This document shows, in pieces, positions 48,234 to 59,670 of a stretch of DNA of 64,000 bases. The stretch comes from Blastococcus sp. TF02A-26 (GTDB taxonomy: Bacteria; Actinomycetota; Actinomycetes; Mycobacteriales; Geodermatophilaceae): NCBI RefSeq assembly GCF_003319125.1, contig NZ_QOHG01000002.1, forward strand, positions 62,001 to 126,000, in the 5' to 3' direction. Below the pieces are notes generated by a model. That model did not search any database. It was not told the origin of the DNA and was given only the letters and a program-made list of their open reading frames with translations. Numbering within the stretch: the stretch's first letter is position 1; each line of letters begins with the position of its first letter. A program made the position numbers and the translations under genes.

Positions 48234-48686
48234 TCAGGCGGCCGGCCGGGCCACGGCCCGGGGCGCCGGCGCCACCTCGGCGAGCGCGGTCACCGACGCC
48301 GTGGACGCCGGGACGGCCATCGCCCAGCGGGTGAGCAGGAAGGCCGCCGGCATCGTGACGGCGACGGCGACCGGCGGGACGATCTGCTCGGGCACGGTCA
48401 GCACGTCGACCATCAACCAGGACACCGCCATCCGCAGGACGATCGTCGACCCGTTCGCCACCACGTAGCGCGCCAGCGACGACCGGGAGGTCTCCACACC
48501 GAACGCGTACCGGGCGTTCGCCACGTAGGCCACGAGGACGGAGATCACCAGCGCGAGGGCGTTGGCCACCATGTACGGGCTGATCAGCAGCAGCGCGAGG
48601 TACAGGCCCCAGTACAGACCGGTGTTCAGGCCGTTGACCAGGAGGAACCGCAGGAACACCCCGACCTGGGGACGGCGAGCGGTCAC
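48234..48686 (-). CDS. GtrA-family membrane protein
   Basis: A 150-residue GtrA-like protein with four hydrophobic helices (FLRFLLVNGLNTGLYWGLYL, then about 40-62, 82-105 and 108-130). GtrA proteins are thought to flip undecaprenyl- or polyprenyl-phosphate-linked sugars made by a GT2 partner. Its GTG overlaps the stop of the GT2 gene upstream (GTGA), the classical gtrA-gtrB pairing. It is the last gene of the six-gene overlapping operon. The tail is Ala/Pro-rich and probably disordered. Confidence 0.85.
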   Translation of the reverse strand: MTARRPQVGVFLRFLLVNGLNTGLYWGLYLALLLISPYMVANALALVISVLVAYVANARYAFGVETSRSSLARYVVANGSTIVLRMAVSWLMVDVLTVPEQIVPPVAVAVTMPAAFLLTRWAMAVPASTASVTALAEVAPAPRAVARPAA

Positions 48687-49498
48687 TCCTGCCCGCCGTC
48701 GTAGCGCCCGCGCGCCGCGCGCCAGAGGATCTTGACGAGCTCGAACTGGGCACGCCGGCCGTGGATCTTGGTCGGCACCGAGCCGGCGTCGGGGTAGGCG
48801 CGGGTGACCGGCACCTCCTCGCACCGGTACCCCAGCCGGGCGGCGCGGATCGGCAGGTAGGCGAGCAGCTCGTAGGTGTCGAACACCTCGCGCATCGGCG
48901 CCACCCGCGGGTCGGACAGCAGCCGGCGGGAGTGGCCGCGGAACCCGTTGGTCGTGTCGGTGTAGCGCCGGCGCGCGGCGACCGAGGTCAGCGGCGCGTG
49001 GAACAGCTTGATGGCCAGGGTGCGCTCGCGCGGGGTGTTGATGGCCGCGCCGCCCGGCACGTACCGGGAGCCCTGGACGAAGTCGCCGCCGGCGTCGAGC
49101 GCCTCGACGAAGCGCGGGATCGCGTCCACGCCGTCCTTGCCGTTGCCGTCGACGGTGATGACGCCGTCGTAGCCCTCCGTCAGGGCGAACGCGAAGCCCA
49201 TGCGCAGCTGCGCCGAGAGCTTCCCGGAGTCCCGCTTGACCAGCAGGGCGCGGACGCCGAGGTCGCGCATTAGCTCCGGGTCGTTGGAGCCGTCGGTGCT
49301 GCCGCCGTCGGCGACGACGACGTCGAGGCCGAGCCCGAGGTCCTGGATGCGGCGCAGCTGGCCGAGGATCCGCTCGCCCTCGTTGATCACGGGGATGAGC
49401 ACGACGTAGCGGCTACCGCGTTCGCGCAGCACGTGCACGTCGGCGCGGGGCACCGCCCACCCGGCGGTCGTGGCGTCGACGAGGAGGTCGTTGGTCAC
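48683..49498 (-). CDS. GT2-family glycosyltransferase (GtrB/DPM1-like)
   Basis: A 271-residue family 2 glycosyltransferase. The GT-A start YVVLIPVINEGERI, DGGSTDGS and VDGNGKDG supply the nucleotide-sugar and metal site. RYTDTTNGFRGHSRRLL is typical of polyprenyl-phosphate sugar synthases. No C-terminal membrane helix is evident, and the GtrA neighbour may provide that role. The enzyme probably loads a sugar onto polyprenyl phosphate. Its GTG overlaps the stop of the isomerase-like gene; all six genes of the operon are coupled. Confidence 0.87.
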   Translation of the reverse strand: MTNDLLVDATTAGWAVPRADVHVLRERGSRYVVLIPVINEGERILGQLRRIQDLGLGLDVVVADGGSTDGSNDPELMRDLGVRALLVKRDSGKLSAQLRMGFAFALTEGYDGVITVDGNGKDGVDAIPRFVEALDAGGDFVQGSRYVPGGAAINTPRERTLAIKLFHAPLTSVAARRRYTDTTNGFRGHSRRLLSDPRVAPMREVFDTYELLAYLPIRAARLGYRCEEVPVTRAYPDAGSVPTKIHGRRAQFELVKILWRAARGRYDGGQE

Positions 49499-50307
49499 TC
49501 GTAGGTCTTCCTCACATAGTCCGCGGTGCGCCGGACGGCGCCCTGGGGGTCGTCGGCGACGGTCAGCATCTCCACCGACACGTGGCCCTCGTAGCCGACC
49601 TCGCGCAGGGCGGCGGCGACGACCTCGTGGTCGACGGGGCCGTCGGGCCCGACCGGCCCGAGCTGCGGCGCGCTGGCGTGCACGTGGGCGAGGACGTCGG
49701 CGCCGGCGCGGACCCGCTCCGCGGCGTCGTCCCCGGCCAGGGCCATGCAGGCGGTGTCCAGGTGCAGCCGGACACCGGGCGAGTCGACCGCTCGCACGAA
49801 CGCCGTGGAGGCGACCGCGTCGGTCAGGTAGTCGCAGCGGTACACCTCGGGGTTGGCCTCGATGCAGAAGCACACCCCGAGGTCGGCGGCCCGGGCGCCG
49901 ATGCCGGCGAACAGCTCGACGGCCATCTCGTCGGCCTGCTCGACCGGCAGGTCCCCGCGGCGGCGGTTGCCCGGCGAGCCGAAGACCAGCCGGGTCGCGC
50001 CGAGGCCGGCGGCCAGGCGGGCCATCCCGACGAGGTGGTCGGCCAGGCCCCGGCGGGCCTGGGCGTCCCCGAACAGCTGCAGCTCCGGGCGCTGGAACAG
50101 CAGGGACTGCAGCGCCACGATCCGCACGCCCGCCGCCTCGGCGGCGGCGCGGACCCGGGCGACCTCGTCGGGTCCCTGCGCCAGTGGGTCGTCCCACAAC
50201 CGGGTGGGGGCCACCTCGAGCGAGGCGAACCCGAGCTCGGGGAGCTCGGGCAGCACGGCGTCGTCGAGCTCGGCCGGCCAGGCGAGGTTGGAGTACGCGA
50301 GCCTCAC
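49495..50307 (-). CDS. Sugar phosphate isomerase/epimerase-like TIM-barrel protein
   Basis: A 270-residue member of the xylose-isomerase-like/AP-endonuclease 2 TIM-barrel family. Metal-binding residues are suggested by CIEANPEV, HLDTACMAL, HVHASAP and VEML near strand ends. Activity is probably isomerisation or epimerisation of a sugar or sugar derivative. The N-terminal RLAYSNLAWP is typical of the family. The GTG at 50307 overlaps the epimerase gene's stop. In a glycan operon such a barrel is unusual and may form a rare sugar. The true substrate is unknown. Confidence 0.8.
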   Translation of the reverse strand: MRLAYSNLAWPAELDDAVLPELPELGFASLEVAPTRLWDDPLAQGPDEVARVRAAAEAAGVRIVALQSLLFQRPELQLFGDAQARRGLADHLVGMARLAAGLGATRLVFGSPGNRRRGDLPVEQADEMAVELFAGIGARAADLGVCFCIEANPEVYRCDYLTDAVASTAFVRAVDSPGVRLHLDTACMALAGDDAAERVRAGADVLAHVHASAPQLGPVGPDGPVDHEVVAAALREVGYEGHVSVEMLTVADDPQGAVRRTADYVRKTYE

Positions 50308-51089
50308 GCAGGAGCCCCCACGAGCGCCGCACCCCACGCGCGGATGCCGGCGAGCACCTCGCCGGCCGAGCGCAGGTAGGCGCCGTCGCGGCCGGCGAGC
50401 CGGGCGGCGTGCGCGGTGCGCAGGTCGTAGGCGACCTGCGGCCGGTCGGTGCACGAGTACTCGACGCCGAAGCACTCCCGGGCGACCTGCGCCGAGGACA
50501 CGGGTTCGGTCGCGAGGTTCACGACCCGCAGGCCGGCGTCGCGGGCGAGGAGCACGTGACCCCAGAGGTCGCGCACGTCGTAGAACTGGAAGGTCGAGTC
50601 CTCGTGGGCGAACCGGGCCCCGGGCTGGTGGATGAGGTCGTAGACCAGGTTCTTCTTCAGCCCGGGACCGAACATGCCGGGCAGCCGGACGACGAGGGAG
50701 TCCTCGAACCGCTCGGTGACGAACCGCTCGAGCAGCGCGCGGTGCCGCCCGTAGGCCTGCTCCTGCGCGGTGTCGGCGGCGGTGTCCTCGTCGGCCTGGC
50801 GCGAGTCGCTGTAGACGTCGACGGTGCTCACCAGCACGCAGGAGCGCGCGCTGCTGCGGTCCAGGGCGTCGATCAGCCGCTGGATGTTGGCCCGGTCGGC
50901 CTCGGGCTCGGCGTTGGCCTTCCACTTCTCGGCCGGGGCGCCGGCGCAGACGACCTCGTCGACGTCGGCGGCGGGGAGCTGGTCGATGTCGGTGCTGCGG
51001 AACCGGGCGACCGGGGCGATCCGCCGGTCGAGCTCGCCGCCGACGAAGCCGGTCCAGCCGATGAGCGCCCGTCGGCGCGCGGCGCTCAC
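50304..51089 (-). CDS. NAD(P)-dependent epimerase/reductase-like protein
   Basis: A 261-residue Rossmann protein of the extended SDR type. The start LIGWTGFVGGELDRR departs from GxxGxxG (the loop reads GWTGFVGG). VSTVDVYSD supplies a Ser-like catalytic position and YGRHRALLE a Y-x3-R in place of YxxxK. The Lys-to-Arg change leaves redox activity uncertain. NDP-sugar epimerase or reductase is likely. It is the third gene of the six-gene unit; its GTG at 51089 overlaps the stop of the second. Confidence 0.75.
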   Translation of the reverse strand: MSAARRRALIGWTGFVGGELDRRIAPVARFRSTDIDQLPAADVDEVVCAGAPAEKWKANAEPEADRANIQRLIDALDRSSARSCVLVSTVDVYSDSRQADEDTAADTAQEQAYGRHRALLERFVTERFEDSLVVRLPGMFGPGLKKNLVYDLIHQPGARFAHEDSTFQFYDVRDLWGHVLLARDAGLRVVNLATEPVSSAQVARECFGVEYSCTDRPQVAYDLRTAHAARLAGRDGAYLRSAGEVLAGIRAWGAALVGAPA

Positions 51090-52159
51090 GCGTCGGTCCG
51101 GGACTCGTCGCGCACGGCGGCGGCCTCGGCGTCCACGTTGAGCATGTCGCGGGCGGCGAGCACCGAGCTGGTCGCCTCGAAGGCCACCCGGTAGATCGGC
51201 CGCTCGTTGGCCGTCTCGTTGGCCTGGAACATGAACTCGGCCATGATCCCGATGACCACGCTGAGCAGCAGGAACATGAAGGACATCTGCAGGCTCATCG
51301 AGGTCCAGCCGGCGACCGCATCGCCCGAGGCGCCGATGATCGCGACGTAGAGCGCGTAGATGACGTTGACCAGGCTCGCGGCCATCGAGATGCCGACGGC
51401 CACGCGGAGCGGGCGGCCGCTGGCGTAGAAGATCGACCGCACGACCTGCCGGAAGCTGCTCGCCGGCCGGGGGTGCTGGCGGGCGCCGGAGGTGTACTCC
51501 ATGACGGCGCAGGGGTAGCCGGAGATCGAGGGCAGGAGGCGCAGCACCCGGTCGCGGTCACGACGGGGCAGCCAGGCGTCGAGCGCCGGCCGGCTGTAGC
51601 CGCGCAGGCCCAGGCTGACCGTGGCGATCTCCTCGCCCATGCTCCGGCTGGCCAGGGCGCGGCTCAGCCGCAGCGCGACCCGTCGCCCGGCCGGGTCGGC
51701 CTTGTTGAGGCCGACGACGACCGCCGTCTCGTCGCTGACCATGCCCGCGCAGCGGACGATGTCCTCCGGGTCGTCGACGCCCAGCCGGGCGGTGACGACG
51801 ATGTCGCCGAGCGCGCCGTCGAGGCCGGCGGTGAACGCCACCTCGTCGCGCACGCCCTTCACGAGGCCGAGGACCTGCATGTTGGCCTGCTGCTCGGCGA
51901 GCTTGCGGGCCCAGGCGATGCGGCCGCGGGCGCCGGGGAGCACGAGGACGATCTCGTGCACCGGGTAGGCCGCGGAGACGACGGCGTCGAGGGCGGCGAG
52001 GTCGCGCTCGACCTCCGCCGGAGCGCCCTCGGCGACCACCACGACGCTCAGGAACGTGCCGGTCCGCGCGGCGGGCGCCGGGGTGCGGACGACGACGTCG
52101 GCGCGCGGCGTACCGGCCTCGGTCGCCTCGGGAAGGGTCTGGGTGTCAAACAGCGTCAC
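51086..52159 (-). CDS. GT2-like glycosyltransferase with C-terminal membrane helices
   Basis: A 357-residue protein. The N-terminal part (about 35-230) resembles a family 2 glycosyltransferase (TFLSVVVVAEGAPAEVERDLAAL, with weak metal-site DGALGD). Two membrane segments (about 262-287 and 297-323) follow, as in DPM1-type enzymes. A membrane glycosyltransferase acting on polyprenyl phosphate is likely, although the DxD site is not clear. The GTG at 52159 has GAGGAG 6-7 nt upstream and lies within the 3' end of the flavin oxidoreductase gene (14 bp overlap), deciding it over an upstream start. It is second in the operon. Confidence 0.76.
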   Translation of the reverse strand: MTLFDTQTLPEATEAGTPRADVVVRTPAPAARTGTFLSVVVVAEGAPAEVERDLAALDAVVSAAYPVHEIVLVLPGARGRIAWARKLAEQQANMQVLGLVKGVRDEVAFTAGLDGALGDIVVTARLGVDDPEDIVRCAGMVSDETAVVVGLNKADPAGRRVALRLSRALASRSMGEEIATVSLGLRGYSRPALDAWLPRRDRDRVLRLLPSISGYPCAVMEYTSGARQHPRPASSFRQVVRSIFYASGRPLRVAVGISMAASLVNVIYALYVAIIGASGDAVAGWTSMSLQMSFMFLLLSVVIGIMAEFMFQANETANERPIYRVAFEATSSVLAARDMLNVDAEAAAVRDESRTDA

Positions 52160-53321
52160 GGAGGTGCTCCTCAGCCACTCGGAGTGCGTCACCGATGTTG
52201 TCGATCTTGGATCCCAGGAGGGACAGGACCCGGCCACCGTCGGAGCGACGGAGCACGACCGGGCGCGCGTCGTCGCTGTCTCGGCGGGCGGGGACGGACT
52301 TGACGCCCCACAGCGACTCGCGGTGCACGGCCTCGCCGATGGCGGGCACGAAGCGCGCGGCGTCGCGGATCATCCAGTCCGCGCGGCTCGCCAGACCGCC
52401 CCGGAGGGCGGCGGCGGCCTGCTCGTACGTCGGGTACGAACCGTGCGGGGTGTACCGCACGTGACTCAGGGTGTGGTACGGCGTGGAGGGGAACGGCATG
52501 AGCGAGAAGTACGGGCCGTCCATGACGGTCACGCCCTTGCCGCGCAGCGCGTCCGGGAGGTCGACCAGGGCCATCTCGCACGGCTCGCAGTGCAGGCCGG
52601 CGTACTCGACGCCCGCCGGCAGGGCCTTGATGCCCTCACCGTAGGTGCACACGAGCGCCTGCCCGGCGGTGACGAGCTCGCCGTCCTCCAGGACCACCTC
52701 GACACCGGTGGGCCGCTCCTGCACGCCGGCGACCGGCGTGCCCAGGCGGACGGTGACGCCGGCCTCGTCCAGCTCCTCGCGCACCAGCTCGCGCAGCCGC
52801 ACGGCGTCGAAGACCGCCTCGCGGACGACCCAGGAGGCCTCGACGGTCGCGGAGTTGAACATCTTGCGGACCGAGACCGGGGCATCCATCAGCGGGGCCC
52901 CGATGTAGTCGCAGACGCGCCGGAACTTGCGGGCGTTGGTCAGCGACCCGCGGGCCACGGCGTAGATGCAGAGGAAGTCGTCGACGACGCAACCGGAGTA
53001 CCGCGCCATGAAGGCCTCGTACGAGGCCTGGCTGCGGCCGGCGGTGCGCAGGGACCGGGGGTAGTGGTAGCCGCCGTGCACCCGGGCCTGGTTGAAGTAG
53101 CTGGCCCCGCCCAGGAGGTCGGCGCGGGCCTCGAGGAGGACGACGCGGGCTCCGCTGCGGGCGGCCTGCGCGGCGAGCGAGGAGCCGTAGAAGCCGCCGC
53201 CGACCACGACGACGTCCCACTCGCCCGAGGCGCCCCGGCCGGCGAGCTCCTGGCCCTCGTACGTGCGACGGGGCTGGGGGATCGACGGCTCCGCGGGGGA
53301 CTCGCGGAGAGCTCGGACCAC
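52146..53321 (-). CDS. FAD-dependent oxidoreductase (DAO family)
   Basis: A 391-residue flavoprotein of the D-amino-acid-oxidase-like family. The FAD-binding loop is DVVVVGGGFYGSSLA (about 36-50). GGASYFNQARVHGGYHYPRS follows, and a late GSKIDNIGDAL segment completes the pyrophosphate and substrate region. These enzymes oxidise amines, alcohols or sugars. As the first gene of a glycan operon it may oxidise a sugar or an amino-sugar, which is inference. The GTG at 53321 is preceded by an AGAGGAG site. The transcript would start from the TACGCT promoter at 53375, which is duplicated elsewhere in the window. Confidence 0.82.
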   Translation of the reverse strand: MVRALRESPAEPSIPQPRRTYEGQELAGRGASGEWDVVVVGGGFYGSSLAAQAARSGARVVLLEARADLLGGASYFNQARVHGGYHYPRSLRTAGRSQASYEAFMARYSGCVVDDFLCIYAVARGSLTNARKFRRVCDYIGAPLMDAPVSVRKMFNSATVEASWVVREAVFDAVRLRELVREELDEAGVTVRLGTPVAGVQERPTGVEVVLEDGELVTAGQALVCTYGEGIKALPAGVEYAGLHCEPCEMALVDLPDALRGKGVTVMDGPYFSLMPFPSTPYHTLSHVRYTPHGSYPTYEQAAAALRGGLASRADWMIRDAARFVPAIGEAVHRESLWGVKSVPARRDSDDARPVVLRRSDGGRVLSLLGSKIDNIGDALRVAEEHLRDAV

Positions 53322-53374: not shown

Positions 53375-53380
53375 AGCGTA
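53375..53380 (-). promoter_or_regulatory. -10 box of six-gene glycan operon
   Basis: TACGCT on the minus strand, preceded by TCGCGCC-N2. The same TCGCGCC-N2-TACGCT occurs at 57704-57709, each 32 bp from the shared TTCGGC motif. Confidence 0.5.
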
Positions 53381-53412
53381 ACGGCGCGAATACGGACCGC
53401 TACAGCCCAAAA

Positions 53413-53611
53413 GTCGCCGAAACGAGACCGGCTCGGCTGGAGCGGTCCCGTCCGTCACACCCGTCACAGGCGACACGGGCCACGGACCGCTGACCTGCGA
53501 GGACACGGCGTCGACGGGCCGGGTCGCCAGAACCGGACCCGCCCGGACGACACCCCGGCGGGCCGCCGGGCGAGACCTCGGCAGAGCGGACGGACCGGTT
53601 CGGCAGATGTT
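53413..53611 (-). repeat. Duplicated upstream element, copy A
   Basis: About 200 bp with three blocks shared with copy B: near GCCGAAACGAGACCGG, CTGACCTGC, and GACCGGTTCGGCAGATGTT. Position relative to the -10 box is the same in both copies, so it is likely to be regulatory. Confidence 0.6.
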
Positions 53612-53700
53612 GCCCGCTCCGACACGCAGCCGGCGCCGCCGGCTCGTCGAGCTGCTCCTCCGTGGCGAGGCCCTTCCGGGAGCGGGTCCGCGCATGCCGA

Positions 53701-53748
53701 CGTCCCCGCAGGCGCGGGTCCCCTCCGGGACCCGCACCTGCGGGGACG
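53701..53748 (-). terminator. Terminator of large membrane-protein gene
   Basis: A stem of 22 positions with 21 paired, starting CGTCCCCGCAGG (53701) and closing CCTGCGGGGACG (53748), with loop CTCC. It lies 23 nt after the stop of the gene at 53771. The strongest stem-loop in the window. Confidence 0.82.
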
Positions 53749-53770
53749 GGCGAGCGGCAGCCGCGAGCGG

Positions 53771-56176
53771 CTACGGCCGGAGCGTGAAGGAGTTCGGGGC
53801 GCCGGCCACGGCTGGGTCGAGCGGCGGGCCCTCGAGGCGGATGTCCAGCCACGGTCCGTTCGGCTCCACCGCGCGGATGGTCCGGACCACCCCGTCCGAG
53901 AAGCGCACCGCCCGCGCGTCCTCGAACTCCTCCTGGTTGCGCACCGTGTTCGGGACGAAGAAGGCCGCCGTGTCGTTGGCCACGCCACGGGTCCAGTAGG
54001 TGTCGGTCAGGTCGACCGGACTCCGCATCAGGTACGAGAAGTACTGCATCGTGGCCGCGCCGTCCGGGACCGTGATCGCCGACGCCGAGCAGCCGGTGAC
54101 GGTCGTGAGCGGCTCGTCGTCCGGGGAGATGTCCCGCATCGCTATCGTCGTCCCGCCGGGCGTCGGCTGGTTCACCGCGACCGGGAACCGCTGGCTCTCG
54201 GCGCCGGGGTCCAGCGGCACGAACCCGCGGGCGCTGGCCGCGATGTTGATGTTGTTCTCGACCATCGTGAACGACCGCGCGTTCGCGCCCGGGCCGACGT
54301 AGTCCAGGGTCACCTCGTAGAGCCCGGCCTCCTCCGCGCCCAGCACGGCCTCGCCGTCCTGCACCGTGCAGGGGACGTCCGCCCACTCCGCCGGGGCCAC
54401 CGGCGTCCAGTGCAGGGTCGTCGGCGACACCTGGACCGGCTCGTAGGACCGGAACAGGGAGCGGTAGAACCACCAGTTCGCGCTGACGTTCCACGACACC
54501 CAGTCGCTGAGCCCGGGCACCGTGGTCGCCACCAGGTCGTGGGTCCGCTCCTCCATCTCCTCCTCGAAGACGGCGCGCTGGCTGCCCAGCGCGGCGATCA
54601 CCGAGTCCACCGGCAGGTCCCGGTTGGGTCCCGTCAGCGCGCCCGCCAGGCCCATGTACTCCTCAACGACGTCGGGGCCGGCCTGGTCGACGGCGGCCAC
54701 CTGGTCGCGGAAGTAGACGGAGAGGTAGCCCCCGAGCCGCGGCTCGAAGACGTACTCCGGGTCCTCGGCGAGGGAGTCCCGGGCGTCGCGCATGTCGTCC
54801 ACGCCCAGGGAGCCGGTGACCACGAGGGCGCCGACCACGGCGGCGGCGAGCACGGCACGGCCCGCGACCACCCAGGAACGGCCGATCCCCCCGCGCCGCT
54901 GGAGGAGCCACGGGACCGCGACGGTCAGCGCCCGCGCGGCCGCCATGACCAGGACCACCGTCCCCCAGAGGTGGAACGACCAGAAGTACATCCCCTGGTG
55001 CCCACCGATGGTCCCGGCGAGACCGCCGGCGAGCAGCGAGCCGCCGACGTAGGTGAGCAGCAGGGAACCCCAGCCCCGCCGGAGCAGCGCGTACACCGCC
55101 ACGGCGACGAGGACCACGAGGGTGAGGAGCACGTTCTCGGCATCCATGATCCGCACCAGGTCACCGAGGGAGTAGACGCGGTAGGGCTCCTCCCAGGACG
55201 CGAAGTACCAGCTCTGGTCCCCGCGGACGTCGGAGAAGTTGTAGCGGAACATCGTCGGGAAGTGCCCGGCGGTCGCGGCGAAGCCGGAGACGAGGAAGCC
55301 GACGAGCGCGGCCCCCCACAGGGCACCGAGTCCGCGCAGGCGGTCGCCCAGGCCCCGGCGCAGCACCTGGAAGGTGACGACCGCCAGGAGGAGTCCGCCG
55401 GAGACCAGCCCGTAGTCGTTGGACCACAGCGCGACGATCAGCCCGGCGCTCGCGCCCACGACCGCCGCCCGGCGCGGCGTCCACCGCTCGCGCAGCGCCA
55501 CCAGGGCCACGGCCGCCAGCAGGTACGGCGCGACGGCCCGGATCGGCCGGAGGCTGTTGCCCGGGAACGCGGCGATGGCGAGGTCGCCGGCGCTGGCCCA
55601 CCACATGCTCGGCCAGAAGTTGGTCACGGCGACCAGCACCGTGGGGACGACCATCCCCCACACCATCGCCAGGCCCCGGCGACGGGAGAACACCAGGGCC
55701 GCGACGACGCCGACGAGGAACTGGAACGCCACGAGCGTCACGAAGTGCGACGAGAACACCGAGTCGGCCAGGTCGCCGCCGCGCAGCGCGAACACGGGGT
55801 AGATGGCCAGCACCGGCCCGATCCCCAGGTACGGGAAGAAGTCCCGACCGGGCCACTCGCCGTCGGCGATGCGGAGGAGCCCGCTCACCGTCTGGAAGGC
55901 CCCGTCGAGGTGGAAGGTGGGCACCTCGTAGGCGAACCGCCGCGCGTGCAGCGCTGCATAGGCGAGGACGAAGAGCACCGGCACGACGTGGCTCGCGACT
56001 CGCAGCACGAGCCGCAGCCGGCCGCGCCCACCGGGGACCGCGGACCGCGCCGCGCCCCGCCGCGCCCCGCCCCGGGTGCTCGGCGCCCCGGCCGCGTCCG
56101 GCGCGCCGGAGGGCACCCGCGTGGCGGTCGTGACGGGATCGGCCTCGTCACGGGTCATCGTTCCGTCGAGCTTCAC
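53771..56176 (-). CDS. Large polytopic membrane protein with extracellular domain
   Basis: An 801-residue membrane protein. After a Thr/Pro/Ala-rich start (to about 60) come about ten to twelve helices (about 65-460), then a long extracytoplasmic domain (about 465-801) rich in aromatic and acidic residues (WNVSANWWFYRSLFRSY; VENNINIAASARGFV). The first loop after TM1 has HLDGAFQTV. The layout resembles polyprenyl-phosphate-dependent GT-C glycosyltransferases of actinobacterial wall assembly, but sequence identity is not recognised. The GTG at 56176 has GAGG upstream; the ATG at 56158 is possible. It follows the next upstream membrane gene by 97 bp and probably shares its transcript. Confidence 0.68.
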   Translation of the reverse strand: MKLDGTMTRDEADPVTTATRVPSGAPDAAGAPSTRGGARRGAARSAVPGGRGRLRLVLRVASHVVPVLFVLAYAALHARRFAYEVPTFHLDGAFQTVSGLLRIADGEWPGRDFFPYLGIGPVLAIYPVFALRGGDLADSVFSSHFVTLVAFQFLVGVVAALVFSRRRGLAMVWGMVVPTVLVAVTNFWPSMWWASAGDLAIAAFPGNSLRPIRAVAPYLLAAVALVALRERWTPRRAAVVGASAGLIVALWSNDYGLVSGGLLLAVVTFQVLRRGLGDRLRGLGALWGAALVGFLVSGFAATAGHFPTMFRYNFSDVRGDQSWYFASWEEPYRVYSLGDLVRIMDAENVLLTLVVLVAVAVYALLRRGWGSLLLTYVGGSLLAGGLAGTIGGHQGMYFWSFHLWGTVVLVMAAARALTVAVPWLLQRRGGIGRSWVVAGRAVLAAAVVGALVVTGSLGVDDMRDARDSLAEDPEYVFEPRLGGYLSVYFRDQVAAVDQAGPDVVEEYMGLAGALTGPNRDLPVDSVIAALGSQRAVFEEEMEERTHDLVATTVPGLSDWVSWNVSANWWFYRSLFRSYEPVQVSPTTLHWTPVAPAEWADVPCTVQDGEAVLGAEEAGLYEVTLDYVGPGANARSFTMVENNINIAASARGFVPLDPGAESQRFPVAVNQPTPGGTTIAMRDISPDDEPLTTVTGCSASAITVPDGAATMQYFSYLMRSPVDLTDTYWTRGVANDTAAFFVPNTVRNQEEFEDARAVRFSDGVVRTIRAVEPNGPWLDIRLEGPPLDPAVAGAPNSFTLRP

Positions 56177-56273
56177 ACTGCCTCGTTCTCGGTCTCCGTC
56201 CGTGGTCGGCGCTGTCGTCGCGCGCGACCGGGCGGACGGCCCGGGGACCGGGGTGGCCGGCACCGGGGGATGG

Positions 56274-57647
56274 TCAGAGAGGGAGCCCGCTCGGGTCGTT
56301 CCGCCGGACGGCGGGCACCTCGGGGAAGCGGACGAGGTCGTCGGGCACCAGCCGGGCCGTCGGGGGGTCGTCAGGCCTCGGGGCGGCGGGCGGTGGCTGC
56401 GCCCGGCTGCCGCGCCCGGCCCACACGCGGCGGCTCACCTCGGCCGTGCGCAGGGCGATCATGAGGAAGACCACGGGCAGGAACGGCAGGTAGAACACGA
56501 TCGCGTCGATGTGGACGTGGTTGATCATGTGGCCGTAGGCCAGCACCAGCCACGAGAGCGCCCCGGCGAGGCCCAGGCCGCCCGCGACGGCGAGCCGCCG
56601 CTGGAGCGCGGCGTCGGGCCGGCGGCCGCGGTACGCCTCCACCGCGAGGGCGGCGTAGACCGCGACGAAGGCCCAGATCGGGATGCCGTAGACGCCCGGA
56701 CCGAAGCCGGTCGCCGTCGGCGCCGGCAGCGTCACCGCGGGAGCCCGGAGGTAGGCCGTCATCTGGTAGAGCCAGAGACCGACCACGTCGCCGGAGCCGA
56801 GCAGCCAGCCGAACAGCGGGTCGTCCTGCGCGCGGGCGAGGTCGAGGGCCAGCGCCATGCTGCTGGGTGAGAACGTCCGCTCCCCCATGCGCTCGCCGAT
56901 GACCGAGGCGTCCCCGTAGAGGGCCAGCAGCTGGCCGACGTGCAGGGCCATCGCGAGGGCGAAGCCGGCGACGCCGGCGACGAGCACCACCCCGAGGCGC
57001 AGGAGGAGCCGCCGGTCGATCCGGCCCCGGAACTCGTGGAAGGCGACGGCGGCCGCGGAGCCCAGCAGCACGGTGCTGATGAACTCGTACCCGCACAGAC
57101 ACTTGAGCAGGACGAGCCCGGCGACGAGGGCGCAGCCGCGCACCCACTTGCGCCGGCCCTCGCCCAGCCGGGGCCACACCAGCAGCGGGACCAGGATCGG
57201 CAGCAGCATGGTCCACAGCTGCCAGTAGGTGCTCGCGCCGAAGCCGTTGGTCCAGAAGGACAGGGTCAGCAGGACCAGGAGCACGGCGGCCACCCGGTTC
57301 CCCCACGCCCGCCGGCTGGCCATCACCGCGGTGGCGAGGACGGCGGCGGCGAGCAGCGCCGTCGTCATCCGCATGGCCTCGTAGAGGTGGTCCCCCGGGC
57401 TCAGCCAGTTCATGACCATGCCCTGCAGGCCGAACTGGCTGGTGTACTCGGCGCCGCGGGAACCGAGCGGCGGCAGGAGCACCGGGGCGGGGTCGAGCAT
57501 CTCGGCGCGGACCAGCGCGTCCGAGTCGGCCTGGAAGAGGTCCTTGTAGCCGGGGTCGAGCAGCCTCAGGACGTCGAACCGGATCTCCAGCGCCAGGAGG
57601 ACCGTGACGGCCAGCCAGGCGAGCCGCTCGCGGGTCATGCGCAGCAC
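56274..57647 (-). CDS. Polytopic membrane protein, GT-C-like
   Basis: A 457-residue protein with about ten hydrophobic segments spread over residues 8-410 and a Pro-rich cytoplasmic tail. The loop after TM1 contains DPGYKDLFQADSDALVRAEM, an acidic stretch like the catalytic loop of GT-C transferases. A later short motif YGHMINHVHIDAIVFYLPF is distinctive. A polyprenyl-phosphate-sugar-using transferase or polysaccharide polymerase is likely, without proof. The GTG at 57647 has GAGAGGGGGG upstream; the ATG at 57638 is possible. Its promoter carries copy B of the duplicated element, so it may be co-regulated with the six-gene operon. Confidence 0.68.
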   Translation of the reverse strand: MLRMTRERLAWLAVTVLLALEIRFDVLRLLDPGYKDLFQADSDALVRAEMLDPAPVLLPPLGSRGAEYTSQFGLQGMVMNWLSPGDHLYEAMRMTTALLAAAVLATAVMASRRAWGNRVAAVLLVLLTLSFWTNGFGASTYWQLWTMLLPILVPLLVWPRLGEGRRKWVRGCALVAGLVLLKCLCGYEFISTVLLGSAAAVAFHEFRGRIDRRLLLRLGVVLVAGVAGFALAMALHVGQLLALYGDASVIGERMGERTFSPSSMALALDLARAQDDPLFGWLLGSGDVVGLWLYQMTAYLRAPAVTLPAPTATGFGPGVYGIPIWAFVAVYAALAVEAYRGRRPDAALQRRLAVAGGLGLAGALSWLVLAYGHMINHVHIDAIVFYLPFLPVVFLMIALRTAEVSRRVWAGRGSRAQPPPAAPRPDDPPTARLVPDDLVRFPEVPAVRRNDPSGLPL

Positions 57648-57703
57648 CGGTCCCCCCTCTCGCTGACTCGCGGCGCCTGAGGGCACCGTCGTCCGGTACG
57701 GCC

Positions 57704-57709
57704 AGCGTA
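57704..57709 (-). promoter_or_regulatory. -10 box of membrane-protein unit
   Basis: TACGCT on the minus strand, preceded by TCGCGCC-N2 and by a GTGACC -35-like hexamer at 17 bp spacing. The layout matches the box at 53375-53380. Confidence 0.52.
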
Positions 57710-57741
57710 TGGGCGCGACCACGCACGGTCACGACGCAGAT

Positions 57742-57942
57742 GTTGCCGAATCGGGACCGGTTTCGGCTGGAGTCCGGCGACGAGGCGGCCGATGCCCGCT
57801 GACACCCGACTGACCTGCACGAACACCGACGACCGGGTCAGCACGCCGGCGCGACTCCGACGTGCCCGGTGTGACGGAGTGGTCCCGATCACTACAGGGT
57901 GCGGACCCTGACACCCCGGAACCGACCGGTTCGTCAGATGTT
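57742..57942 (-). repeat. Duplicated upstream element, copy B
   Basis: Shares with copy A the blocks GCCGAATCGGGACCGG, CTGACCTGC and GACCGGTTCGTCAGATGTT. It lies in the 286 bp gap before the membrane gene and reaches 9 bp into the 3' end of the gene at 57934. A small CAGGGT/ACCCTG hairpin at 57895-57910 may end that gene's transcript. Confidence 0.6.
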
Positions 57943-59496
57943 CACCACTGCGCGGGCGCGGTCGGCCCGGCGTGTCGCCCGGCGGTCCGCACCCGAGCGG
58001 AACCGGTCGGCGGCGAACAGCAGGCCCGCCAGGGTGACGCCGATGGCCGGCCAGTACACGTAGCGGTAGTCGTAGCCGATGACCGTGGGCACGTAGCTGA
58101 CGATGTACAGCAGCGAGGACGCGCACAGGGCCAGGACCACCGGCGCGTGTGGCAGGTCCCGACGCCGGCGCCAGGTCACGGCCAGGAGCACGGCGCCGGC
58201 CAGCAGCCAGGTGAACGGCTTGTAGAGGAAGCCGAAGTTGCGGAACGAGAAGTCCACGTAGGTGTACAGCCCGTCGGTCGCCGCGTTCGGCGTGAAGGTC
58301 AGGCCGTACGGGTTCGGGCCGACCCCGTACCACCACACGAAGCTCTCGCCGAAGGGGGTGTCGAGGAACCGGCTGAAGACGTAGGCCCGGTAGTGGAGGT
58401 AGCCCAGCGGGTCGCCGGCGATCCCGCTCAGGTACAGGTCCCGGATCTCCGCGGGGTGGTCGAGGAGGAACTGCGGGATGTCCCCGGTGCTGGCGCACCG
58501 CCACGTGTAGTTGACGTCCCGCTCCGAGGAGGGGCACCGCTGCGCCAGCGCCACGAGCTCCCGACGCAGCGACGGGCTGACGTCCGCGTCGGCCAGCTCC
58601 TCGACCGTGTACAGGTGCATGACGTCGTCGAGCATGATGCTCGACGAGGGGTGGGTCGCCGCCACCGGCCGCACCAGGTCGATGACCGGGGTGACCGCCA
58701 GGGCACCGACGACCACGCCACCGGCCAGCGCCAGGCGCGCGCGCCTCGCGTTGCGGGCACCGGGCCACCGCAGGAGGAACAGCAGCGGGACCAGCGCCGG
58801 CAGGGCGTTGTAGCGGACGGCTCCGGCGTAGGCGAGCAGCAGGACCACCGCGGCGACGGCGGCGGTGCGCAGCCACCGCCGGCCGATGCCGAGCTGCAGG
58901 TGCAGCAGCAGCGCGACCGCGCCGAGCATGGCGAACGCGAGATGGGTGTCCTTCCAGATGACACCCGAGATGTTGGCGACGTACGGCAGCACGCCCAGCG
59001 CCAGAGGCAGGAGGGAGACCGGCCGCAGGCCGGTCCGCCGGAACGCGTAGACGGCCAGGAGGACGAGGCTGCTCCACAGGGCCGTGAGCTGCACGACGAG
59101 CATGGCGCCGACGGTCTGGAAGGAGAGCTTGTTGACCACCCACCACAGGGCGGTCATGACCGGCGGGTGCCAGTCGTCCAGCTGCCGGGTGTCCAGCGCC
59201 TGACCGAACTGGTCGATGGAGTCGTTGGACAGGAAGCCCGGGTAGTACGCGACGACGTTGAGGGCCAGCAGTCCCACGCCCAGGGCGACCAGCACCCGCG
59301 GCCAGGAGCCCAGCGCCCGGGTGGCGGTGTCCAGCACCCGCGTGCCGGCGTGCCGGACACGCCGCCAGCGGTTCCCCGCCGGTGGGCGGGAGGGGAGCGC
59401 CGTCCGGCGCCCGGCCGGGCCGGGGTCCGGGGCGGCCGCGGCCTGCTCCGGTGCGGCCGGGACCTCGAGCGGCGACGCACTCGTCTGGGTCAGCAT
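57934..59496 (-). CDS. Large polytopic membrane protein (ArnT/PMT-like or polymerase)
   Basis: A 520-residue membrane protein with a Pro/Ala/Arg-rich start (1-65) and about eleven helices (about 67-500). The first loop after TM1 reads YYPGFLSNDSIDQFGQALDTRQLDDWHPPVM, which resembles the acidic catalytic loop of GT-C family members. A second extracytoplasmic segment (about 240-370; SSERDVNYTWRC, FGESFVWWYGVGPNPYG) is large. Eight-residue patterns such as DWHPP are seen in DUF6020-like proteins of actinobacteria. Function is presumed to be glycan transfer or flipping. The ATG at 59496 follows a TAGAGT box about 90 bp upstream. Confidence 0.7.
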   Translation of the reverse strand: MLTQTSASPLEVPAAPEQAAAAPDPGPAGRRTALPSRPPAGNRWRRVRHAGTRVLDTATRALGSWPRVLVALGVGLLALNVVAYYPGFLSNDSIDQFGQALDTRQLDDWHPPVMTALWWVVNKLSFQTVGAMLVVQLTALWSSLVLLAVYAFRRTGLRPVSLLPLALGVLPYVANISGVIWKDTHLAFAMLGAVALLLHLQLGIGRRWLRTAAVAAVVLLLAYAGAVRYNALPALVPLLFLLRWPGARNARRARLALAGGVVVGALAVTPVIDLVRPVAATHPSSSIMLDDVMHLYTVEELADADVSPSLRRELVALAQRCPSSERDVNYTWRCASTGDIPQFLLDHPAEIRDLYLSGIAGDPLGYLHYRAYVFSRFLDTPFGESFVWWYGVGPNPYGLTFTPNAATDGLYTYVDFSFRNFGFLYKPFTWLLAGAVLLAVTWRRRRDLPHAPVVLALCASSLLYIVSYVPTVIGYDYRYVYWPAIGVTLAGLLFAADRFRSGADRRATRRADRARAVVNI

Positions 59497-59670
59497 CGAT
59501 CTGGAAACCGTTCTCGTGCGGGCCGGGGGCGTCTCGAGGAGACCCCGGCCTCCGCCGGCCGAGCTCGGCCGCTGCGCACGGACTCTAAAGTCGAACGGCA
59601 CCGCCGCCAGGACGTCGGGAGCGTGTCAGCCCCACCCGTCCCACCGTGATCACGAGCCGCCCCGAGGGGC

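Follow-up and report, generated by a model that had tools for sequence, protein, structure and literature searches.

Two intergenic regions, designated copies A and B, are found in a 64,000-nucleotide stretch of the Blastococcus sp. TF02A-26 genome, referred to here as the window. Every gene involved lies on the minus strand, and both copies read from high to low coordinates. Copy A (53375-53611) lies between the stop codon of a gene for an 807-residue membrane protein (53771) and the GTG start of an FAD-oxidoreductase gene (53321). Copy B (57704-57942) lies between the stop codon of the gene at 57934-59601 and an ATG at 57638. The features of the locus are as follows.

53593..53611, minus strand: copy A, S1 site AACATCTGCCGAACCGGTC (sequence; whole-window and genome motif search)
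53599-53615, minus strand: copy A, wider S1 core GGGCAACATCTGCCGAA
53490..53498, minus strand: copy A, middle block GCAGGTCAG, weak and possibly a chance match
53416..53437, minus strand: copy A, S2 site GCCGAGCCGGTCTCGTTTCGGC, an inverted repeat 35 bp 5' of the -10
53375..53380, minus strand: copy A, TACGCT as the inferred -10 of the six-gene unit (sequence; orthologous FAD-oxidoreductase promoters)
48234..53321, minus strand: six-gene unit behind copy A (family and profile matches)
57924..57942, minus strand: copy B, S1 site AACATCTGACGAACCGGTC (sequence; whole-window and genome motif search)
57810..57818, minus strand: copy B, middle block GCAGGTCAG, weak and possibly a chance match
57745..57767, minus strand: copy B, S2 site GCCGAAACCGGTCCCGATTCGGC
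57737-57744, minus strand: second AACATCTG, directly after copy B S2
57704..57709, minus strand: copy B, inferred -10 hexamer TACGCT (sequence; Blastococcus ortholog promoter)
53771..57638, minus strand: two-gene unit behind copy B (genes 56274-57638 and 53771-56194)
53701..53748, minus strand: strong hairpin with 22-nt arms, 95% complementary, without a T run

The unit behind copy A encodes an FAD oxidoreductase (DAO), a PgfS-like glycosyltransferase, an NAD epimerase, a xylose-isomerase-like protein, a family 2 glycosyltransferase and a GtrA-like membrane protein. Both large proteins of the copy B unit lack a Pfam or NCBIfam match and are classed as membrane proteins by their hydrophobicity. 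This arrangement, with six genes behind copy A and a membrane-protein unit behind copy B, is that described in an earlier sequence-only reading of the locus. The hairpin lies directly 3' of the membrane-protein gene; it is plausibly the end of the copy B transcript and is consistent with two separate transcription units. A consensus sigma-70 scan and a terminator scan gave no match. Orthologs of the oxidoreductase are present in 8 of 115 genomes of the family and those of the copy B gene in 3 of 115 (the window genome counted in each case), indicating that the glycan cluster is accessory. The oxidoreductase orthologs that carry organism names identify this family as Geodermatophilaceae. In two of the ortholog-bearing genomes, the B gene directly precedes the oxidoreductase gene; in the window genome, the 807-residue gene and copy A lie between the two.

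Copies A and B share a chain of short blocks in identical order. On the coding (minus) strand, the 19-bp upstream site S1 (AACATCTGNCGAACCGGTC) is followed by GCAGGTCAG, by the inverted-repeat site S2 (GCCGA..CCGGTC..TTCGGC) and by TCGCGCCNNTACGCT (TACGCT, -10-like), which terminates at 53375 in copy A and at 57704 in copy B. The 5' ends of S1 and S2 are 174 bp apart in one copy and 175 bp apart in the other, and S2 is 35 bp from TACGCT in both. The blocks, order and near-equal spacing given in the sequence-only reading were all recovered. Its description of a duplicated 200-bp promoter is overstated for sequence identity, as much of the intervening ~240 bp is dissimilar. S1 of copy B overlaps the last codons and stop (GTG AAC ATC TGA) of the upstream gene.

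The actinobacterial -10 type is TANNNT, to which TACGCT conforms. At the position equivalent to the copy A -10, promoters of orthologous oxidoreductase genes read TACTCT or TACGCT; for the copy B -10, a Blastococcus ortholog promoter likewise has TACGCT.

The likeness between the two copies is well beyond chance. Local alignment of the A and B intergenic regions scored 22.5, compared with 11.9 ± 1.6 for dinucleotide shuffles, and 0 of 2,000 shuffles reached the observed score; the last 100 bp 5' of the -10, omitting most of the hexamer itself, gave a z-score of 8.9. S1 with ≤3 mismatches occurs twice in the 64 kb, versus 0.04 expected, and twice in the whole 4.68-Mb genome, as copies A and B. 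The weakest block is GCAGGTCAG, with three copies in the window versus 0.77 expected, and its match may be due to chance. The search for S2 covered the window. BLAST with copy B found no third full copy in the genome, in a search so insensitive that copy A itself was unlisted; a third copy of the proximal part could therefore escape detection if it had diverged. With only two occurrences of S1 genome-wide, the copies do not belong to a dispersed repeat, the explanation that had been set against shared control when the copies were first described.

The S1 pattern has matches in 24 of the 115 family genomes, the controls giving none, and nearly all matches in relatives are upstream of one small helix-turn-helix gene, HTH1. 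The exact 17-bp core GGNCAACATSTGMCGAA, a near-dyad (GKCA-N5-TGMC), is found at 34 places in 115 Geodermatophilaceae genomes (0 control matches), comprising 28 HTH1 promoters, two of which lie at contig ends close to the gene start, five flagellar intergenic regions and copy A. HTH1 is a small protein with a proline-rich N terminus and a domain of the HTH_17/excisionase type, and it has a weak BldC-family match; in the window genome, it is encoded at contig C16:249183-249356. Upstream of it (L244 7616-8346) are small genes that look, by eye, like ANTAR- and STAS-type regulator genes.

A protein search distinguished two paralogs, of which HTH2 is present in almost every genome and HTH1 in about 40. 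Of the 38 HTH1 promoters gathered through protein homology, every one has the conserved element, GGTCAACATCTGACGAASCGGACCGGTYCGTCTCGTCC or a close form, ~50 bp 5' of the -10, and the window genome's own HTH1 promoter has GGTCAACAGTTGACGAATGGGACCGGTCCGTCTCGTCC. A related element, TTCTGCCNAGGACGGACCGGTCCGCCTGTTCG, with GGACCGGTCCG, occupies the equivalent position in HTH2 promoters, which is what autoregulation within the family would predict. Most genera of the family share a strongly conserved block, TTCTGCCNAGGACGGACCGGTCCGCCTGTTCGTTTCA, in the HTH2 promoter (L032, L213-L232).

The link between the glycan units and HTH1 is also found with an independent matrix, constructed from 37 HTH1 promoters of other genomes that were collected by protein homology and aligned without the motif. 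Over 17 bp, this matrix gives 30.2 bits for copy B and 28.7 for copy A, the next-best site in the window scoring 10.3. Over the full 38 bp, copies A and B score 0.3 and 10.6, respectively, whereas the HTH1 set scores ≥49.5. Retention of no more than the left part of the HTH1 operator accounts for this gap: the match extends over about 19 to 22 bp only, and the right half (CCGGTYCGTCTCGTCC) is altered in both copies. The loss in copy A is readable as the deletion of one ACCGG unit, with TCCGTC still matching once this is allowed for. The position also differs: HTH1 promoters have the element ~50 bp 5' of their -10, whereas in copies A and B it lies far upstream, as S1. For a model named R1, which was trained on a set containing A and B, the scores in their own genome are not independent.

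Several other readings of the core were rejected. Core matches in low-molecular-weight phosphatase genes (L139, L140 and L141) are coincidental, the DNA coding there for CTGNICRS, and such coding sequence can mislead motif searches. D2-only matches (GACGAAGCGGACCGTTCCGTC) in many genomes were judged from their near-identical flanks to be conserved-protein coding sequence. Promoters of the sigma-28 type (GCCGATAA) or ECF type, considered by eye in A, B and the flagellar copies, are unfit in spacing or upstream hexamer.

The flagellar core matches (L122, L124, L135, L136 and L138; genomes G085, G088, G035, G074 and G081) are located within a flagellar cluster, where a csrA-like gene lies on one side and, on the other, an unknown gene that is followed by a sigma-factor-like gene, these names being taken from translations read by eye. 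The element here, CGACACGGGCAACATCTGCCGAA, shares 17 bp identically with copy A and is followed by a further conserved stretch (GACACGGCGAGTGTTGT). G085, a one-contig genome, has the flagellar core and HTH2 and no HTH1 match, and HTH1 thus cannot be the sole reader of the core. The operator could be real and be read by a different transcription factor that also controls HTH1 and, in relatives, a flagellar gene, with HTH1 as a target, and the near-dyad core would suit a dimeric factor better than head-to-tail binding. We consider this a serious alternative, at perhaps one chance in three: a third protein with HTH1, the glycan units and the flagellar gene all under its control is almost as good a fit. 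However, no particular protein is indicated, the element accompanies HTH1 in every genome that has HTH1 and in at least two different gene neighborhoods, and the paralog HTH2 has its related element at the same place.

It is improbable that a promoter segment was simply duplicated within the cluster and kept by descent, with no special regulator beyond that of a normal promoter. Such an origin would account for the alignment of A with B over the 100 bp 5' of the -10, a region that does not align convincingly with the orthologous promoters of relatives, and for the lack of a visible third copy in the insensitive BLAST search. Against it, the inter-block sequence has diverged while blocks and spacing are retained, and S1 corresponds to an element whose conservation extends far beyond the glycan cluster. 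An ancestral glycan-cluster promoter kept in orthologs was rejected, as neither copy aligns convincingly with promoters of the orthologous genes; copy B reached a z-score of 4.7 with the Geodermatophilus africanus promoter, but close relatives of G. africanus gave about 0, so this value is likely due to chance.

A duplicated regulatory RNA or leader, the other mechanism first suggested for the copies, is very improbable and found no support: conserved, equally spaced blocks precede both units and a short stem is possible from S2, but the blocks lie 5' of the inferred -10, the element matched by S1 in HTH1 promoters is likewise 5' of the -10, an Rfam search gave no match, and the predicted folds of the two RNAs differ, with unremarkable z-scores (-1.7 and -0.65). 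Short common elements before polysaccharide operons are known in JUMPstart/ops and the eps-associated RNA (EAR), which act on the transcript after initiation. Copies A and B resemble them as short common elements ahead of polysaccharide units and differ in lying 5' of the inferred -10 and in having no Rfam family match.

The data support a shared DNA operator, since the same specific sequence is present beyond chance at the promoters of more than one unit. The shared regulator first proposed for the two copies is upheld to this extent: both lie directly upstream of separate minus-strand units, and S1 is nondispersed and matches an element in the promoters of a regulator gene of the family. We give about an even chance to the fuller reading, in which A and B are DNA-level regulatory regions under a shared operator, with HTH1 as the reader that coregulates both glycan units. 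HTH1 is probably the reader and is the best candidate because regulators commonly carry their own site and the paralog HTH2 has a matching element.

Under control by HTH1, each copy would comprise a promoter with TACGCT as its -10, a proximal S2 ~60 bp 5' of the inferred transcription start and a distal S1 ~175 bp above S2, a distance of near whole helical turns (16 to 17). S1 would be the left part of the longer operator carried in HTH1's own promoter. HTH1 would bind S1, and possibly S2, to set the expression of both glycan units together, and would also regulate itself. The near-equal 175-bp spacing suggests joint action of the two sites. The analysis shows the common layout, its significance and the match to HTH1 promoters across the family; protein binding, the role of HTH1 as binder, the cooperation of S1 with S2 and the direction of control (activation or repression) are inferred.

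HTH1 is a small HTH protein of the MerR-like/excisionase type that matches the BldC model weakly, and it invites comparison with BldC of Streptomyces, which binds direct repeats as head-to-tail multimers, at sites that vary in length and precede several targets (PMC5859096). HTH1 scores 20.5 bits against NCBIfam HTH_BldC, below the curated cutoff of 77, and is therefore not filed as BldC. Furthermore, BldC sites are AT-rich direct repeats of AATTNNNNC, whereas the operator of HTH1 is GC-rich and dyad-like, and inspection of the operator by eye found none of the AATT-type 9-bp repeats known for BldC. A broader scheme would make HTH1 an accessory, self-regulating, BldC-like protein that uses one conserved operator for surface glycans in some Geodermatophilaceae and for flagellar genes in others, and that bridges two sites 175 bp apart at the glycan promoters; as a whole, this is speculative and unlikely.

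The closest named relative of HTH1 is presumably Rv0500A of Mycobacterium tuberculosis, whose HTH domain is probably of the same type. Rv0500A binds promoter DNA and represses, and its targets belong to the pH, chloride and potassium response (PMC6375644), in contrast to the glycan genes here. No definition of its site was found in the text of that paper (PMC6375644).

The kind of control proposed is ordinary, and the locus would be a new example of it rather than a new mechanism. What began as a visual likeness between promoters becomes a testable regulon, with an operator, a candidate regulator with coordinates and surface-glycan units as targets. To our knowledge, the binding sequence of this branch of small HTH proteins is undefined, and regulation in the stress-tolerant Geodermatophilaceae of rock and soil is little worked out. 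The S1 element may provide a candidate DNA site for this branch, including its relative in M. tuberculosis.
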